Translations under genes and position numbers: made by a program
The notes under the pieces: model-generated
The model's database searches: none
The model's input: only the letters and a program-made list of their open reading frames with translations
Told to the model about the DNA's origin: nothing
NCBI RefSeq assembly: GCF_900101015.1
Contig: NZ_FNFZ01000028.1
Coordinates: 1 to 43,386, forward strand
Length of the DNA: 43,386 bases
Reading direction: 5' to 3'
Source: Sarcina sp. DSM 11001
GTDB lineage: Bacteria > Bacillota > Clostridia > Lachnospirales > Lachnospiraceae
Part shown: positions 2,849 through 41,095 of the stretch, one piece after another
How the letters are laid out: the number at the start of each line of letters is the position of its first letter
Position numbering within the stretch: the stretch's first letter is position 1

Positions 2849-4420
2849 TTACATCAGAGGGGCCAGCCACTTGAGCAGGCGTCCGAAAAACTTGTAGGAA
2901 AACTTCTCATTTTTAATGGTATCCGGAGTCACTTCCCTGCATTTTGCCAGGGTCTCCCGGAAGTCCTTCTCGATGTCCGCGATACAGTCCGTCTTATACA
3001 GATAAGTCGCGCACTCGAAGTGATGATAGAGGCTCCTGTAATCCAGGTTGATGGTGCCGACCACCGCCTTAATGTCATCACTCACGAAAACCTTTGCGTG
3101 GACAAATCCCGGAGTATACTCATAGATCCTGACACCGGCTTCATAAAGCGATTTGTAGTGGGTTTTGGCCAGGGAGTATGCCGCCTTTTTGTCCGGGATC
3201 CCCGGGAGGATCAGTTTCACATCCACTCCGCGCTGGGCGGCGAAGCGAAGAGCCGTCTCCAGCTCACCGTCCAGGATCAGGTAGGGCGACATAATATGTA
3301 CATAGTCATTGGCGCGGTTCAGGATGTCCATATAGACTGACTCTCCCGCTTTATACTCATCGAGCGGGCTGTCGGCATAGGGCATTACATAGCCTTTTGA
3401 CTCCTCAGACGGGCAGTCCGGGACTGAGAGGAATTCCCCGTAATCCGGATTTTCGTAAGGCATGTTCCACATCTGCAGGAACATCAGGGTAAAGCTTTTG
3501 GCTGCCGGGCCTTTGAGCATGACCGCCGTATCCTTCCAGTGGCCAAAGCGCTCCAGGCGGTTGATGTACTCATCCGCCAGGTTAATCCCTCCGTTGAAAG
3601 CGACTTTCCCGTCGATCACCAGGATTTTCCTGTGATCCCGGTAATTATAGTGAGAGGAGACGACCGGCATGATCGGCGAAAATGCTCTGGCATGGATCCC
3701 CTGCTTTTCCAGCAGCTTAAAATAGCCGGACGGCAGGGAAGACGCTTCGCACATCCCGTCATAGGTCACGCGGACATCCACCCCTTCCTTCGCTTTCCGG
3801 ATCAGGATCTCCAGGATGCGGCCCCACATATAGCCCTCGGTAATGATAAAGTACTCCATGAAAATAAACTTTTCGGCCTTCTCGAGTTCTTCGATCATGG
3901 CCGCAAACTTATCCTCACCGAGGGGGAAATAAGTCACCTGTGTTTTATTGTAGATTGGAAAGCACCCGCTGAGGTTCAGGTATTTTGCAAGGTCATCTGT
4001 TCCTGAGCCGTCATCCCGGATCTCTTCGATGACATCCGGCGGCTGTTTCAGCGCCTCTTTTGTGTTGTCGATCTGCCTTTTAACCAGCTCCGCTTCTTTC
4101 CGGTGTCCGATGTTGGATTGGGTGAACAGCAGTAAAAGAGCACCTGCCGCAGGCAGTAAAGACAGGATCAGCATCCAGGACAGCTTCGCAGAAGCGTCCA
4201 TGTTATTGTTGAACAGGTAGATGACCATCACAAATGTGAAGACCCAGTACAAAGCAAGCAGGGCAGGATACTTGTTTGTGGCCCAAAGCCACAGGGCAAT
4301 CAAAATGACGACCTGAATCAGAAGCAGCGCTATGACCAGAAATAACCTGCTGAATATAAAACTGCCAAGCCCCTTCTTAACCGGCTTCGCCAGTCTGATC
4401 ACATTTTTCTCGTTATCCAC
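2849..4420 (-). CDS. cls: Cardiolipin synthase (phospholipase D superfamily)
   Basis: Condenses two phosphatidylglycerols into cardiolipin at the cytoplasmic membrane. Two or three hydrophobic segments near the N-terminus (about residues 23-46, 54-70 and 81-99) are followed by two PLD catalytic domains. Each has a full HxKxxxxD motif: HRKILVID at about 263-270 and HAKVFVSD at about 441-448. Length (about 523 aa) fits the family. The frame stays open up to a TTG at 4453 without a ribosome site, whereas the GTG at 4420 has GGGAG 8 bases upstream, so the GTG was chosen. It lies 80 bases downstream of the HD-protein gene on the same strand and is probably co-transcribed with it; transcription ends at the hairpin at 2678-2715. 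Confidence 0.93.
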   Translation of the reverse strand: MDNEKNVIRLAKPVKKGLGSFIFSRLFLVIALLLIQVVILIALWLWATNKYPALLALYWVFTFVMVIYLFNNNMDASAKLSWMLILSLLPAAGALLLLFTQSNIGHRKEAELVKRQIDNTKEALKQPPDVIEEIRDDGSGTDDLAKYLNLSGCFPIYNKTQVTYFPLGEDKFAAMIEELEKAEKFIFMEYFIITEGYMWGRILEILIRKAKEGVDVRVTYDGMCEASSLPSGYFKLLEKQGIHARAFSPIMPVVSSHYNYRDHRKILVIDGKVAFNGGINLADEYINRLERFGHWKDTAVMLKGPAAKSFTLMFLQMWNMPYENPDYGEFLSVPDCPSEESKGYVMPYADSPLDEYKAGESVYMDILNRANDYVHIMSPYLILDGELETALRFAAQRGVDVKLILPGIPDKKAAYSLAKTHYKSLYEAGVRIYEYTPGFVHAKVFVSDDIKAVVGTINLDYRSLYHHFECATYLYKTDCIADIEKDFRETLAKCREVTPDTIKNEKFSYKFFGRLLKWLAPLM

Positions 4421-4500
4421 GGACACTTCTCCCACTTGTTTTTTCTCCGGCAAATCAGATCAGTGATGACAGAGCACTCTTCTTCTCCCGCAGGACGCGC

Positions 4501-5013
4501 TTATTTACAGATCTTGCTTTTACTCTGTTGTTTTTTCTCTGACAGATCATGTTTCTTCAGCAGCATCTCATTTACGGCGCAGTATTTATCTGCAAGACAG
4601 ACAAGCACAGCTTCCCTGCTCATCGGAGGGTGCAGAAACGTCATCGGCCACATATGGCTGCGGATGATATTTGTTTCCTTTTCAGTAAGGCGGTGGCGCT
4701 TCGATGCGTTTTTCAAAGCTGTCTCCGGATGGCTTATGCCATGCCGGTAGGGACTCATCTTCGTCTCCTTGAAAGTATAGAGATAATAATCGTGGAGCAT
4801 GGCGCCCCTGGCCAGCGCTTTTTCATCAATATCGATCCCCAGTTTTTCAGCAATGCGGAAACTGACATCAGCTACGTTTTCAACATGCTGAAGTGTGGTA
4901 TTTCCATTGTGCATCGTGAAAGAGGCCATCTTCTGTATCTCCGGATCTTCCTTCAGGAGCCGGATCTGTTCATCAAAAATGCTTCTGTCATTGTGTACTT
5001 TAGTCTTCTTCAT
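4501..5013 (-). CDS. HD-domain phosphohydrolase-like protein
   Basis: A 170-residue soluble protein with the metal-binding pattern of the HD superfamily: His43, the His74-Asp75 pair in AMLHDYYLY, and an Asp in CLADKY near the C-terminus. Members hydrolyse phosphate esters or nucleotides, but the substrate cannot be read from the sequence. The ATG lies inside the last codons of the upstream lipoprotein gene (14-bp overlap), which implies translational coupling. cls follows, so a role linked to envelope lipid metabolism is possible but is inference. Confidence 0.8.
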   Translation of the reverse strand: MKKTKVHNDRSIFDEQIRLLKEDPEIQKMASFTMHNGNTTLQHVENVADVSFRIAEKLGIDIDEKALARGAMLHDYYLYTFKETKMSPYRHGISHPETALKNASKRHRLTEKETNIIRSHMWPMTFLHPPMSREAVLVCLADKYCAVNEMLLKKHDLSEKKQQSKSKICK

Positions 5014-36379: not shown

Positions 36380-37231
36380 TTATCCAAGGCCAATACACTC
36401 CGTACAAATATTTGCAGCTTTTGTGAACACAGCTTTCGCGCTGCCGTTCATCACACCCAGAACAATAAAGACGACCGCCGCGATGGTCAGGACGATCCGG
36501 AGCGTCCGCTTCGCCTTCGGATTCCCGGCCTGCGGACAGTTTTTCGTTGAATTCTTCTCTGTCTCTGACTTTTTCTCAGTCTCCGAATCCTTCTCGATCC
36601 CGTCCGCCTTCGGCTCCGGCCGGATCCCGGATTGGCTCCCGGATTCTTTTTCCGCTTTGATCTGTGCCTGAGCGGCAGCTGTCTCTCGCAGCATGCTCTT
36701 TTCCTGCAGAACAGTGGACACTATGAGACAGCCGAATCCCAGAATGATCCAGGGAAAAATATGGGCAGCCAGAGCTGCGGCCATCTCTTCCAGACTGCCG
36801 CCGGGGAAATGCTCACCGTTTGCGACATAGATGATCACCGGCACCAGGCAGAGCAGAAACAGCACCCGGCCGACCCGGCGGAGCTTTTTCTGCCTGCGCT
36901 GCTCTTCTTTCATCTGTTCACCGGGATCCACCACACGCGCGACAATGAGATTACGGGCAAGCTCCGTATCCCTGACCGGCTTTTCAGCGTTGTCATCTTT
37001 GACGGCCAGGATCCAGCCCGCGGCTGTCAGGCCGAACGAGCCGAAAAACAGCGGAGCGATCGGCCTGAATTTTTCAGCTGCCTTTTCGGCAGTATAGATC
37101 GATTCCATCGGGTCCTCAGCCTTGCGGGCCTTACCTTCGCGGTAGATCGAGACGGCCGAAGCTGCCAGAAGGATCACCAGCAGCACGCAGACCACCGACT
37201 GGACGATCAGATACAGTTTCTTTTCTGTCAT
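36380..37231 (-). CDS. Membrane protein ending in a CD1871A-type CXXC tail
   Basis: 283 residues with about four membrane segments (residues 7-29, 60-76, 121-138 and 156-173) and a further one near 245-262. A charged low-complexity linker (190-235) separates the N-terminal part from the last 45 residues, which end KAANICTECIGLG. That tail resembles the small CD1871A-type CXXC membrane proteins of Clostridia, here joined to a larger protein. The stop lies 7 bases before the ATG of the Fe-S/thioredoxin gene, which points to coupled expression. A redox role beside that protein is likely; the exact function is unknown. Confidence 0.72.
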   Translation of the reverse strand: MTEKKLYLIVQSVVCVLLVILLAASAVSIYREGKARKAEDPMESIYTAEKAAEKFRPIAPLFFGSFGLTAAGWILAVKDDNAEKPVRDTELARNLIVARVVDPGEQMKEEQRRQKKLRRVGRVLFLLCLVPVIIYVANGEHFPGGSLEEMAAALAAHIFPWIILGFGCLIVSTVLQEKSMLRETAAAQAQIKAEKESGSQSGIRPEPKADGIEKDSETEKKSETEKNSTKNCPQAGNPKAKRTLRIVLTIAAVVFIVLGVMNGSAKAVFTKAANICTECIGLG

Positions 37232-37282
37232 AAAAATCCACCCTTCCTGTCCGGGAATTATGATGGCCCGAAACGGTTTTTA

Positions 37283-37744
37283 TTAGTTCGAATCTGCTTT
37301 CTGCAGGGAGATATAGATATCGCAATAGACGGTCTCGGTCTTGAATTCTTCGTTGTTCTTTTCATAACCGGAGGGAACCTTCAGCATGTGTATGGTATAG
37401 ATCTGGCCTTCATCCGCTTTGAAAGAGGCTACACCGTTTTCATCGGTCTTTGCCATCATGCAGGTGCTGTCCGAGCAGAACTGTACCGCTGCGCCTTTCA
37501 CCATGTTTCCCTCTGTATCGCTGACGAACACGCGGTAGACACCCGCATCGTTGGGTGCAATACTGACAGACTCAGGCTCCTTCACTTCAGGCTCGTTTCC
37601 TTTCAAAAGACTATCGATGACTTTCTCATATTCGTCCATTTTTGCAGGGGCACCCTTGAAGCTTCTGCAGAGAAGAGTTCCGTCGCTGCCGAAAAAGTAG
37701 GATGTGGGAAAGGCTCCGTCATACTCAAGGAGTTCATAGAGATC
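37283..37744 (-). pseudogene. 5'-truncated TlpA-like redoxin with C-terminal carboxypeptidase-regulatory-like domain
   Basis: Reading in frame from an in-frame TAG (37745-37747), the sequence DLYELLEYDGAFPTSYFFGSDG is the C-terminal part of a TlpA-like redoxin. It continues into a domain with VYRVFVSDTEGNMVKGAAVQ and MAKTDENGVASFKADEGQ, typical of carboxypeptidase-regulatory-like or prealbumin-like folds. Upstream of the stop only about 15 compatible codons (SLLSESGIRQV) remain, and the CXXC-containing half is missing. A 118-residue piece could still be made from the ATG at 37639. The intact counterpart would fit the redox cluster just downstream, so this looks like a decayed member of it. 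Confidence 0.65.
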
Positions 37745-37848
37745 CTAAACCTGCCGGATTCCGGACTCGCTCAAAAGGGAGTTCCGTCTTATTGGTTTAT
37801 TATAGCATTGAATCATCAAAGGGTGAACAGGCCCGCTGCACTTCTATA

Positions 37849-37893
37849 AATAACGGACAAGTCAATGATCAATGATCAGACTTGTCCGTTATT
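37849..37893 (-). terminator. Terminator-like hairpin of the RiPP locus
   Basis: A perfect 15-bp inverted repeat AATAACGGACAAGTC/GACTTGTCCGTTATT (37849-37863 with 37879-37893) has a 15-base loop that itself contains two ATGATCA copies. It lies 3 bases past the radical SAM stop. The T-tract is weak. Confidence 0.65.
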
Positions 37894-37895
37894 AT

Positions 37896-39227
37896 TCAGG
37901 TCAGGTTTTCTTCCCCAAGAGCTGTATTATTATTATCCGCATCGTCCACCAGGCGGCATAAAAAGGCTGTCTTCAATACCTTACGTACTTCCCGGCAATG
38001 ATAGTCCTCCACAGGGCAGGCGGCAAAGGATGTGCAGTCAGGAAGAAAAAGGCAGGTCCTGCATTTTTCCCGTGTACGATCCACCCGGCAGAATTCCCTT
38101 CGGGCATCGTCGTCCGTAACACCCTGCCAAATATCCCCGAAGCGGCTTTCCGGAGGGCAATGCTCGCAGGCATACAGGCTTCCATCCGGCCCGATCACCA
38201 CGCCGCTGCCATCCGCCATGCAGTGGTTCACCCTGTATCCCGGCTTTTCTCCGAAGAGCGGACCGGTGGAAAACCCGGCAGCCTCGATCAAGGGTCTTGC
38301 TGCAGTCACTTTTCTCCAGACCGGAAGATCTCTCTCCCCCGCGCGGATCCCGTACAGAGGGGAAAGATAGCATCGCACCTTCTCCTTGCAGGGGATACCG
38401 TCTTTCAAATCCTCGAGAAAGGCGGGGATCCTGTCAAAATTGTCTTCGTCCACATTGCAGCGGATGCTGACCTCGATGCCGGCTTCGCTCAGCATCCTGA
38501 TCGCTTCCAAGACACGGTGATAGTGATCCTGGTAGTTAATATACCGTTTTCGAAGGATATAATCACTTTCCGCGCCGTCCATGGAAATCTGGATCCTGTC
38601 CAGCTGCCATAGGCCAGTCATTTTTGCAAGAATCTCCGGGGTGATCAGACTGCCGTTTGAAACCATCGAAGAACGATAGTGCAATCCGGCATCACGCAAT
38701 CCTTCACAGATGCGTCCGATGATATCCGGGCACATCAAAGGCTCCCCGCCAAACCAGTGCAGGCCCACGCTTTTATCTGTATGTGTGTCCACGATATAGC
38801 GGATGGTCTGCTCTACGGTTCCAGGAGCCATGGTCACCGGTTTCATGCCCTCTTCGTAGCAATAAACGCAACGGGCGTTGCAGGCGAGAGTAGGCAGAAT
38901 GGTGTACCCCTTATACCCTTTACTGTCCTTCTTTTTTCCAAAGACTCGAAGCATGGACATAACAGCATTATAAAAGCCGCATTCGTCCTTGCCTTCCGGT
39001 ACCAGAAAAAGCTTCCTGATCAGAGCGTCATAGCCTTCCCCGGCCCTGCACCGCCCGGGCAATTTCGTTTCCAGACATTGCCGGGTCAGCGTGTTACACA
39101 CAAAATCCCTCCCTTTGTAAGCAAAGGACAGCGTGAACTGGGAAGGGACATAGACGACACCGTCAAGAAGCCGGACAGGCGGTAATACCTTTGCCAGCGT
39201 TTCATCAGGTTTTCGTATTTCTCTCAT
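37896..39227 (-). CDS. Radical SAM/SPASM peptide maturase
   Basis: 443 residues. The radical SAM cluster motif CNARCVYC gives Cys116, Cys120 and Cys123, and GGEP at 160-163 contacts SAM. The N-terminal 100 residues look like a peptide-recognition region. The C-terminus has a SPASM-type set of cysteines (ACEHCPPES, CRTCLFLPDCTSFAACPVEDYHC) for auxiliary 4Fe-4S clusters. Such enzymes install thioether or other crosslinks in ribosomal peptides. Two small precursor genes lie directly upstream on the same strand, which supports that role. The ATG at 39227 has no nearby ribosome site; an AGGAGG sits about 40 bases upstream, and an in-frame TAA lies seven codons before the ATG. Confidence 0.9.
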   Translation of the reverse strand: MREIRKPDETLAKVLPPVRLLDGVVYVPSQFTLSFAYKGRDFVCNTLTRQCLETKLPGRCRAGEGYDALIRKLFLVPEGKDECGFYNAVMSMLRVFGKKKDSKGYKGYTILPTLACNARCVYCYEEGMKPVTMAPGTVEQTIRYIVDTHTDKSVGLHWFGGEPLMCPDIIGRICEGLRDAGLHYRSSMVSNGSLITPEILAKMTGLWQLDRIQISMDGAESDYILRKRYINYQDHYHRVLEAIRMLSEAGIEVSIRCNVDEDNFDRIPAFLEDLKDGIPCKEKVRCYLSPLYGIRAGERDLPVWRKVTAARPLIEAAGFSTGPLFGEKPGYRVNHCMADGSGVVIGPDGSLYACEHCPPESRFGDIWQGVTDDDARREFCRVDRTREKCRTCLFLPDCTSFAACPVEDYHCREVRKVLKTAFLCRLVDDADNNNTALGEENLT

Positions 39228-39291
39228 TTGATGCTTTATAATTTCTTAAAAAGATTTTGAAAATAATTCCTCCTGACGATGCAAATCATCA

Positions 39292-39414
39292 TTAGAAAGT
39301 ATGCGTGTCGGGGCCTTCATTTGTATCTGCTGTTCCCCCAACACAGAAGCTGGTCAGAATCACATCTCTATTGAGTTCCACAATTTCCATTATGGGCTTT
39401 TCGTACTTTTCCAT
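39292..39414 (-). CDS. RiPP precursor peptide B
   Basis: 40 residues. The first 22 (MEKYEKPIMEIVELNRDVILTS) match precursor A closely and look like a leader. The remaining 18 (FCVGGTADTNEGPDTHTF) form a divergent core with one cysteine, two Gly and several Thr/Asp. AAAGGAAAAA precedes the ATG. It lies between precursor A and the radical SAM maturase, all on one strand. Assignment rests on leader similarity and context; I cannot name a known peptide class. Confidence 0.8.
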   Translation of the reverse strand: MEKYEKPIMEIVELNRDVILTSFCVGGTADTNEGPDTHTF

Positions 39415-39526
39415 TTTTTCCTTTCTCAGGGTTTTACCCGATTTTCAATTTTTATTATTCATTATCGGAAATGACATTTTCAGTGTTTTTCTGCCGAAGC
39501 ATTATTCAGCTGTCAACATATAACAG

Positions 39527-39652
39527 TCAGAAAACATTTGCCATGGAAGGCTCATTATCAGCAGGGTTGCCCGAACCGCACCTTCCGCTGGTAAGGATAA
39601 CCGAATCGTCTATATCAATAATCTCCATTTGAGGCTCATCATACTTTTCCAT
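39527..39652 (-). CDS. RiPP precursor peptide A
   Basis: 41 residues. The leader MEKYDEPQMEIIDIDDSVILTS is followed by the core GRCGSGNPADNEPSMANVF with a single cysteine. The ATG at 39652 has AAGGAA about 6 bases upstream. The frame is open for 36 more codons upstream, but a promoter lies at 39749-39777, so the short form is the likely product. It is the first gene of the RiPP locus. Confidence 0.8.
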   Translation of the reverse strand: MEKYDEPQMEIIDIDDSVILTSGRCGSGNPADNEPSMANVF

Positions 39653-39748
39653 GGTTTTTCCTTCTACTTGTTTTGCCAGGGTTTCATTCCTGTCCGTGGC
39701 TGCTGCCAACGACATGCCGTCCCACAGCTTATAATATCCATCGCATGC

Positions 39749-39777
39749 ATTATAATACAAAAAAGCATGTATAACAA
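39749..39777 (-). promoter_or_regulatory. Sigma-A-like promoter of the RiPP locus
   Basis: On the minus strand a -35 TTGTTA (39772-39777), 17-bp spacer and perfect -10 TATAAT (39749-39754) predict a start near 39742, leaving a 90-base leader before precursor A. Confidence 0.72.
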
Positions 39778-39952
39778 CGATTCATCCTCATTTATGAAGA
39801 TATGCGGGATTGAATTGGTACAGTTTAGAACGCCTCAAAACCCGATGCCAGGCGTTTTTCGTAATCTTAAGCGTACTCCCCCCGGGTGGAATGGCGAAAA
39901 TCCTGTCACGCAGCGATAACAAAACTTAACTTTGCAGAATGGGTTTTTGGCA

Positions 39953-39994
39953 AAAGTTACTGTCACACCCTCAATAGGGCGTGACAGTAACTTT
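39953..39994. repeat. Long REP-like inverted repeat
   Basis: Arms of 18 bp, AAAGTTACTGTCACACCC and GGGCGTGACAGTAACTTT (39953-39970 with 39977-39994), pair with one mismatch around a six-base loop. There is no T-tract. It may be a repetitive extragenic palindrome or the end of a lost mobile element. Confidence 0.7.
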
Positions 39995-40114
39995 CGAATA
40001 CGTCCAGCTGTCAATGGGGAATCGGGACGATCATCCCGGTCACGCTGATTTCAGAAGGGCTTATTCCAGGTTATTTTCCAGGTTATTGCCCTGATTTCCT
40101 GTTCTTATCGATAA

Positions 40115-40240
40115 AGCAGACTGCGGATGTCCATGATGTTATTAGTCAAACGCAGCAACACGTGGCTCCTGCGGTGCCCGGCTTCATTGCGGCTGCGGTC
40201 CATGATGTTATCAATAAAACGCAGCAACTGCAGCCTGGTT
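40115..40240. repeat. Imperfect duplication at the end of the surface-gene remnant
   Basis: The 3' end of the remnant frame, including its stop (minus strand GCTGCGTTTTATTGATAAC then ATCATGGAC), recurs about 70 bases further as GCTGCGTTTGACTAATAAC then ATCATGGAC. Confidence 0.7.
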
Positions 40241-41095
40241 GTAAAGATACAGCGCTTTGCCCAGATCGCTCACCTCCTTTTCGGCCTTTCCGGCGCAGGA
40301 GCGCGCGTAGGTCAGCACGGACATCGTGATCGTGTAGGTGTTTGTGCCGTCCGATATTGAATAGTCATTTGTATCCTGCAGATGGTTCGAATATACGCCG
40401 GTATCCAGTGCCAAGTATCTACCGACACTGTGATCTCCTGCTCAGGCTGCATGCTGACAGGATCCGCGTCTCCAATCGCCACCGACCACTCTTTAAAGAC
40501 CTTGCCGGCCACTACATAGTCGCATTCGGGAAGCGGATACACGGTGTCCTTAACGGACTTCACATTTTCTATCTCACCTTCAGCGCTGTCATCACCAGGC
40601 TGGAAGTTCACAGAGCACAGATCCGGGACAGTTTCCAGAGGCACCAGCGTAACCGTTTTTTTCGGTGTCGTTGTGCTTCCTCTGAGGTATACATTATCTT
40701 TTATCGTATCCTTGAAATCGCTGTCGAACGTTGTCTTTGTACTGAAAAAACTCGTGGTAACTTTCATATCGGCTTTGCCGGACTCGGTCCAGCCGAAGTG
40801 AACGTTCATGCTTGTGGTAGGGTTGGGACCAAAGCCTCTTCCTATCCCGATGCCTACGTAGGTCGTCTTTCCGTCAGGTTCCAGGTCCATATTGCCGCCG
40901 GTGATGTTGACGTCAAAGCCGCCGGCATAGAAAGAGCTGCCGATGGAAGCCCCGGAGTCTGAACCGTTGACCGTGAGCGTACCGCCGGATATGTTGACAG
41001 TGCCTCCCGACGGGATGATATTATCCGGATCGCCTGAGACATTTACGGAAGCTGTTCCGGATACATGTATGCCTCCGCCGTTCTTTACGCAGGTG
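40211..41095 (-). pseudogene. Decayed fragment of a large surface protein
   Basis: From about 41095 to 40415 one frame encodes a piece with no start, NNTCVKNGGGIHVSGTASVNVSG, then GGNMDLEPDGKTTYVGIGIGRGFG, and further on YVVAGKVFKEWSVAIGD. This is the beta-solenoid and InlB-like style of extracellular Clostridia proteins. Near 40415-40430 the frame changes, and another frame supplies LDTGVYSNHLQDTNDYSISDG, then LTYARSCAGKAEKEVSDLGKALYLYNQAAVAAFY and a stop. Missing N-terminus plus frameshift or deletion make it a pseudogene. Its 5' break lies inside the end of the kinase gene. Confidence 0.75.

Follow-up and report, generated by a model that had tools for sequence, protein, structure and literature searches.

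Two precursor peptides with a lasso-type leader beside a radical SAM/SPASM maturase in Sarcina sp. DSM 11001: probably a ranthipeptide-like system split over several loci

Organization of the locus

We analysed a 43,386-nucleotide contig of the gut bacterium Sarcina sp. DSM 11001 (NZ_FNFZ01000028.1; hereafter the window, contig C49 in our numbering), which carries, in order on the minus strand from 39652 to 37896, two short open reading frames (ORFs), precursors A and B, and a gene for a 443-residue enzyme. We hold strongly that these genes belong to a system for ribosomally synthesized and post-translationally modified peptides (RiPPs), with a radical S-adenosylmethionine (SAM) enzyme as maturase. 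A ends 112 nt ahead of B, the enzyme gene follows B after 64 nt, and an AAGG lies a little 5' of both precursor ATGs.

Precursor A (39527..39652) runs for 41 residues from an ATG start to a TGA stop, and precursor B (39292..39414, minus strand like all features of the locus) for 40. The two share a 22-residue leader, MEKYxxPxMEIxxxxxxVILTS, and then pass into unrelated cores with one Cys in each, just as a sequence-only reading of this stretch had described them: same-strand ORFs with a common leader and divergent single-Cys cores of 18-19 residues. The leader of A, MEKYDEPQMEIIDIDDSVILTS (39587..39652), has a lasso-type YxxP motif and a Thr-Ser end, placed from conservation, and is followed by the 19-residue core GRCGSGNPADNEPSMANVF (39530..39586); in B, the leader MEKYEKPIMEIVELNRDVILTS (39349..39414) precedes the 18-residue core FCVGGTADTNEGPDTHTF (39295..39348). 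Searches of A and B against NCBIfam and Pfam gave no match at E up to 1, and six precursors of relatives tested against NCBIfam gave one chance-level match.

The radical SAM/SPASM maturase

The enzyme (37896..39227) carries an N-terminal RRE-like (RiPP recognition element-like) domain at about residues 22-82 (38982..39164). The radical SAM [4Fe-4S] site, CNARCVYC, spans residues 116-123 (38859..38882), with three cysteines invariant in 32 sequences, and the auxiliary-cluster cysteines of the SPASM region are C336, C354, C389, C392, C398 and C404 (38016..38222), of which the first five are invariant and C404 nearly so in the same alignment. Pfam Radical_SAM (PF04055) matches far above its cut-off (E 1.2e-19), and the Pfam SPASM model falls under its own (E 0.052, 14.3 of 21.5 bits). 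The enzyme is a radical SAM/SPASM RiPP maturase in general kind, having both the cysteines and a SPASM-type fold, which confirms the earlier assignment of a downstream radical SAM enzyme with SPASM-like cysteines. By sequence profile its closest match is CteB, a maturase that forms thioethers, and in a fold comparison of the predicted model CteB ranked first, with TigE tied.

The best NCBIfam match, TIGR04463 (residues 67-403), gave 118.2 bits against a cut-off of 525, so the enzyme is not a member, and no model among the best 25 of 69 reached its cut-off; the proposed pairing of RiPP-type precursors with one maturase is supported. Four relatives' maturases scored 109.5-125.5 bits on TIGR04463, and one of these had TIGR04334 first, at 120 of 600 bits.

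At the C terminus, 19 of 24 relatives end in Cys directly before the stop and one more has Cys next to last, the codon for the terminal Cys often lying just 5' of the ribosome-binding site of a PqqD gene; the window's enzyme ends in NLT. With TGA standing where relatives have Cys and a hairpin close behind, selenocysteine was considered and rejected, since no selenocysteine tRNA match rose above the gathering score and loss of a TGC codon before the TGA explains the end equally well.

Recurrence of the leader and its cores

Relatives were taken as the best 80 of 228 from a scan of genome contigs, and 26 of them (L016-L040 and L080; E up to 5e-70, 32-62% identity) form the close set. A leader hidden Markov model (HMM), made from 21 seeds chosen by eye from the close loci and this genome, was run over 16,528 ORFs of 20-120 residues in the loci taken. 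At E up to 0.01 it found at least one leader ORF in 22 of the 26 close loci; the 30 ORFs found all lie within 1.5 kb of the enzyme gene and on its strand. The seeds were drawn from the same loci, so their own matches are circular, those of A (E 3.2e-11) and B (E 9.4e-14), whose leaders were among the seeds, included; ORFs found without being seeds include those of L034, L035 (two), L031, L080 and L039. The close loci without a match comprise L024 and L038, with look-alike ORFs by eye, L028, where none was seen, and L032, whose contig begins within the enzyme. In the 25 best HMM rows the leader end was reached by 24, with Ser or Ala last in all 24 and Thr before it in 21. The pattern set beforehand as contrary to a RiPP system, namely the same enzyme without conserved small peptides, does not describe the close set, given the leader ORFs in 22 of its 26 loci.

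In three close precursor pairs, amino-acid-changing differences per site (pN) were fewer than silent ones (pS): 0.02-0.08 versus 0.29-0.48 in the leader and 0.14-0.26 versus 0.23-0.66 in the core, where the ungapped core alignment of the second L029/L040 pair may overstate changes. Such values, with the lower pN in the leader, indicate that the genes are translated and that the core changes faster than the conserved leader.

The leader also recurs within the host genome (4.15 Mb, 76 contigs). A search with the enzyme found one further strong match, 43% identical, on contig C46, with a leader-bearing ORF on either side, and in an alignment of four leaders from this genome M1, E2, K3, Y4, P7, E10 and I11 are invariant. 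Together with the close loci, this pair beside a second enzyme bears out the view that the shared leader is more than chance. A tree built from 32 maturases puts the window's enzyme in a 14-row set (support 100/99) and the C46 enzyme outside it, so the two do not stem from a recent duplication. Among 397 genomes of the family, the maturase occurs in 4 (E up to 1e-40) and PqqD in 12 (E up to 1e-15), with both in only two (G000 and G109); G357 and G272 have the maturase, and a search at E up to 0.001 found no PqqD in them, so that co-occurrence at the family level is thin. Titles of relatives' metagenome-assembled genomes such as Anaerolineaceae or Planctomycetales may reflect mis-binned rumen Clostridia.

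Wherever a leader could be made out, its core was added manually to a list. The list holds 42: 34 beside close enzymes (four from this genome), one from L039 and seven beside distant enzymes. Every one contains Cys. The single Cys noted for A and B holds for these two but is a minority trait in the wider set (13/42). One core of L017 reads CTPVDVPAYDDWFG, and that of L030 is Cys-rich. After removal of five near-duplicates from the 34 close-enzyme cores, the remaining 29 have Asp or Asn three residues after Cys in 39 of 87 cases, versus 16.7 expected; in 5000 shuffles, no offset of the 12 considered ever showed as strong an enrichment.

Partner genes in relatives and on contig C53

An 86-residue PqqD-type RRE is encoded on the enzyme's contig in 21 of the 26 close loci, together with an HprK-like kinase in 14, an S26-like peptidase in 14 and an NTP_transf_5 nucleotidyltransferase in 10; presence was scored by sequence clustering, and some contigs are short. 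PF05402 was above cut-off for the one relative's PqqD tested. PqqD-less L033 lies on a cut contig, with the rest of the enzyme gene followed by PqqD on another (L116), and the genomes of L036, L037, L039 and L080 have PqqD away from the enzyme contig. In the window's genome the locus has no PqqD; the gene is found on contig C53, flanked by those for an HprK-like kinase and an S26-like peptidase. The locus, described as compact from its sequence, is thus not self-contained, and the lack of a dedicated protease or exporter, which stands for the window ORFs read, does not, as far as the protease is concerned, extend to the genome, where C53 offers a candidate.

We set the C53 genes against two groups: 26 maturase-linked loci, and 10 PqqD loci of family genomes where the maturase search had found none. 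C53 PqqD is 63-85% identical to the maturase-linked proteins (20) and 44-72% to the others (10; none above 60 except L126 at 72). For the S26-like protein, the ranges are disjoint, 47-74% (13) versus 32-44% (8); for HprK they overlap, 34-64% (14) versus 37-43% (8). The tetranucleotide profile of C53 correlates with that of the window at r 0.96, as against 0.66-0.79 for loci L016, L022 and L030, making a binning error unlikely.

The best solved match to the PqqD profile is TbiB1 (E 5.7e-6), a lasso RRE crystallized together with its leader; on the NCBIfam model lasso_PqqD_Strm, C53 PqqD reached 40.4 bits, under the cut-off of 70. The C53 kinase, under every NCBIfam cut-off, has an H-x17-G-x-GKS pattern and a later DD (counted by hand), near the motif listed for lasso kinases. 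In the S26-like protein, Ser23 and His61 are kept in 8/8 aligned sequences; Pfam gave nothing for it at E up to 0.01, and its likeness to archaeal-type signal peptidase I stays under the cut-off (27.3 of 51.85 bits). We regard the C53 protein as a candidate for leader cleavage.

A caveat is that, of the 10 family loci whose examined stretch lacks this enzyme, 8 have the kinase-PqqD-S26 cassette as well (L127-L130 and L133-L136). Seven of the eight have an ABC or NTP_transf_5 gene, and no radical SAM homologue lies within the about 3 kb examined around them. At L133, a look-alike leader has YxxA for YxxP and a core without Cys. The HprK-PqqD-S26 module therefore seems wider than the present system.

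Two Cys-less leader peptides in the host suggest that the C53 set may serve several substrates. On C48 (L106), MEKYETPVMEIDLFDEAELKTYTGTGDALDPESFQ at 3415-3522 sits directly 5' of a second HprK-like kinase (3746-4603), and the genome search with the window's enzyme gave no radical SAM match on this contig; the peptide is perhaps one that is only phosphorylated. On C63 (L107, 3176-3274), the leader-like peptide KENYESPEMEVCLFDTDDVITQSPIEEDDED lies beside a repeat-rich surface-type ORF. We do not claim as partners the NTP_transf_5 gene on C32, which by eye sits among polysaccharide-type genes, or the best ABC match (C38, 26% identical).

Relation to known systems

The closest named systems are the SCIFF/ranthipeptides, with a SPASM radical SAM enzyme (CteB, TIGR03974; PapB, NF047865), a Cys-bearing core and, in the relatives' cores here, acidic or amide acceptor candidates near Cys; CteB is also the nearest enzyme by profile and, tied, by fold. 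The system differs in several respects. The maturase scores 45.5 of 425 bits on TIGR03974 and 94.3 of 340 on NF047865, and by the curated models TIGR03973 and TIGR03974 the system is not a member; moreover, the leader is lasso-type, and relatives add a kinase, an S26-like peptidase and a nucleotidyltransferase. NxxcA, according to PMC8326336, has a single Cys-Asn thioether, a precedent by which one bridge per peptide is not odd.

The leader and accessory genes resemble phosphorylated lasso clusters, such as bsf of Bradymonas (PMC10368454) and the paeninodin type. According to PMC10368454 and PMC12710340, YxxP and a penultimate Thr mark lasso leaders; ours has both YxxP and Thr at -2, given the leader end placed above. 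A discrete PqqD-type RRE (B1) and an HprK-like kinase are likewise present, here on C53 and away from the precursors, and the nucleotidyltransferase is found in the relatives' loci counted above; PMC7533575 places HPr kinase, PqqD and nucleotidyltransferase genes in rumen lasso clusters. Where lasso systems have a B2 protease and a cyclase, these loci have a radical SAM enzyme and an S26-like peptidase. The single match to the B2 peptidase model PF13471 in the genome scored 21.4 bits, under the cut-off of 26, and no cyclase was recognised among window ORFs or shared neighbours, with Asn_synthase matches lying on C36, C37 and C45. A full lasso system was rejected for want of a B2 protein above cut-off.

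SynChlorMet cassettes also combine a radical SAM/SPASM enzyme with an HprK-like protein. The likeness is weak: the ScmC model matches the kinases and ScmE the maturase, far under their cut-offs (at most 27.8 of 125 bits and 49.6 of 400, respectively).

The sequence-only reading's statement that the locus fits no nameable class was too strong, given a lasso-type leader and RRE and an enzyme fold near CteB. The maturase and precursors fit no named family tested, and we class them as a RiPP system of the SPASM kind built on a lasso-type chassis. A literature search returned no paper whose title or displayed text describes this system, preprints and most subscription journals being outside its scope. 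It could be one of the 22 unreported radical SAM pathways annotated in PMC9062424.

Proposed mechanism and alternatives

We favour, with somewhat better than even confidence, a system in which A and B are RiPP precursors whose cores are cross-linked by the radical SAM/SPASM enzyme through thioethers, with partners acting in trans; it is probably a ranthipeptide-like thioether system that uses a lasso-type chassis and has its genes spread over several loci. The YxxP leader would be bound by an RRE, either the reduced RRE-like domain of the maturase or C53 PqqD, or both. Near the core Cys, at a distance of a few positions, the enzyme would then remove a hydrogen from an acceptor, for which Asp or Asn is the likeliest choice. 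Its bonding to the Cys sulfur would yield a thioether of the ranthipeptide sort, which in the chemical sense joins sulfur to a beta or gamma carbon, and each bridge would lower the mass by 2 Da. Phosphorylation of a core residue may be the task of the C53 HprK-like kinase, aided by the RRE, and the S26-like Ser/His peptidase would cut behind the Thr-Ser end of the leader. A single kinase-RRE-peptidase set could in this way serve two dispersed precursor-maturase loci, the window and C46.

Weighing against the thioether proposal, the window's cores, single-Cys as they are, lack Asp or Asn at Cys+3, as do all 11 single-Cys cores in the count. Five of the 11 have it at +4 (core A, L020 and three related cores of L017/L018). 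With the Cys+3 trend absent from this group, we do not assign the acceptor residue in the window's cores.

The same architecture could serve another radical chemistry, such as a sactipeptide C-alpha thioether, a C-C or C-O cross-link or ring (cyclopropylglycine) or epimerisation, with the Cys acting elsewhere. We judge this unlikely, though the strongest of the alternatives: Cys in every listed core, the Asp/Asn enrichment at Cys+3 and the proximity to CteB speak against it.

A second alternative, distinctly less probable, takes the window copy as a decaying remnant of a system that works in relatives, here severed from its RRE and inactive. Within the 14-row set of the tree, the 13 rows besides the window all have PqqD on the contig, and it is absent in cis here, the terminal Cys codon is missing, and the flanking genes look broken on both sides. 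Against decay, all three genes have open frames, the leader and the radical SAM and SPASM cysteines are retained, and the genome has a kinase-PqqD-S26 set related to maturase-linked ones, with the tetranucleotide match to the window given above. That the short ORFs are chance or unrelated small genes is hardly credible, for all that A and B match no NCBIfam or Pfam model: the leader is conserved across the close loci and recurs in the same genome, silent changes prevail in the three pairs, and the relatives' loci already contradict it.

Returning to the thioether system, we offer tentatively, at somewhat less than even confidence, the wider idea of a RiPP class that arose by enzyme swap on a lasso chassis. 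Leader, RRE, HprK-type kinase and nucleotidyltransferase would be kept, the lasso protease would give way to an S26-like peptidase and the cyclase to a thioether synthase of the radical SAM/SPASM type, products would be thioether-bridged and possibly phosphorylated, and one C53 set would serve several dispersed loci. If true, the leader and RRE, along with the tailoring kinase, would make up a portable chassis that accepts different cross-linking enzymes, here a radical SAM enzyme in exchange for a lasso cyclase. The precursors would give concrete substrates to a group of maturases that no NCBIfam model fits, their single-Cys cores being the simplest case for bridge assignment. TIGR03973 served as the ranthipeptide mining rule in a Hungate1000 survey (PMC13289728); a rule of this kind would miss A and B, which match no NCBIfam model at the threshold used.

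Surroundings of the locus

The sigma-A-like promoter described upstream of A exists as a site, TTGTTA-17-TATAAT (39749..39777, minus strand; 10/12 consensus positions), but six promoter-like sites in the region, versus 3.3 (sd 2.4) expected, are not clearly above chance. Similarly, the terminator-like hairpin 3' of the maturase stop (37849..37893, minus strand) folds strongly through 15-bp arms (-26.2 kcal/mol, z -6.3), but it lacks a U-run behind it and was not among the calls of the terminator scan. An Rfam search of 37000-40500 gave nothing above the gathering score.

The gene right behind the hairpin (37283-37846, minus strand) looks like a 5'-truncated thioredoxin-like/SpaA-like protein, and on the other side lies a surface-type gene in broken frames (40211-40890, minus strand), which places the RiPP locus between two broken-looking genes. 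A mobile element was rejected: at E up to 1e-20, there was no phage match, and the plasmid search gave only two matches, at 27%, both Clo7bot maturases.

Surface-type proteins adjoin three YxxP-leader peptide loci of the genome, the window, C46 (L008, 8956-17988) and C48 (L106, 3-2048), with C-terminal ends alike by eye. The C46 protein has Cna_B repeats and the C48 protein no Pfam match; tblastn of these two against the window gave no match. Upstream of the locus are a 19-bp inverted repeat (39953-39994; 95% complementary, 4-nt loop) and a 31-bp direct repeat, 90% identical, at 40129-40159 and 40198-40228.
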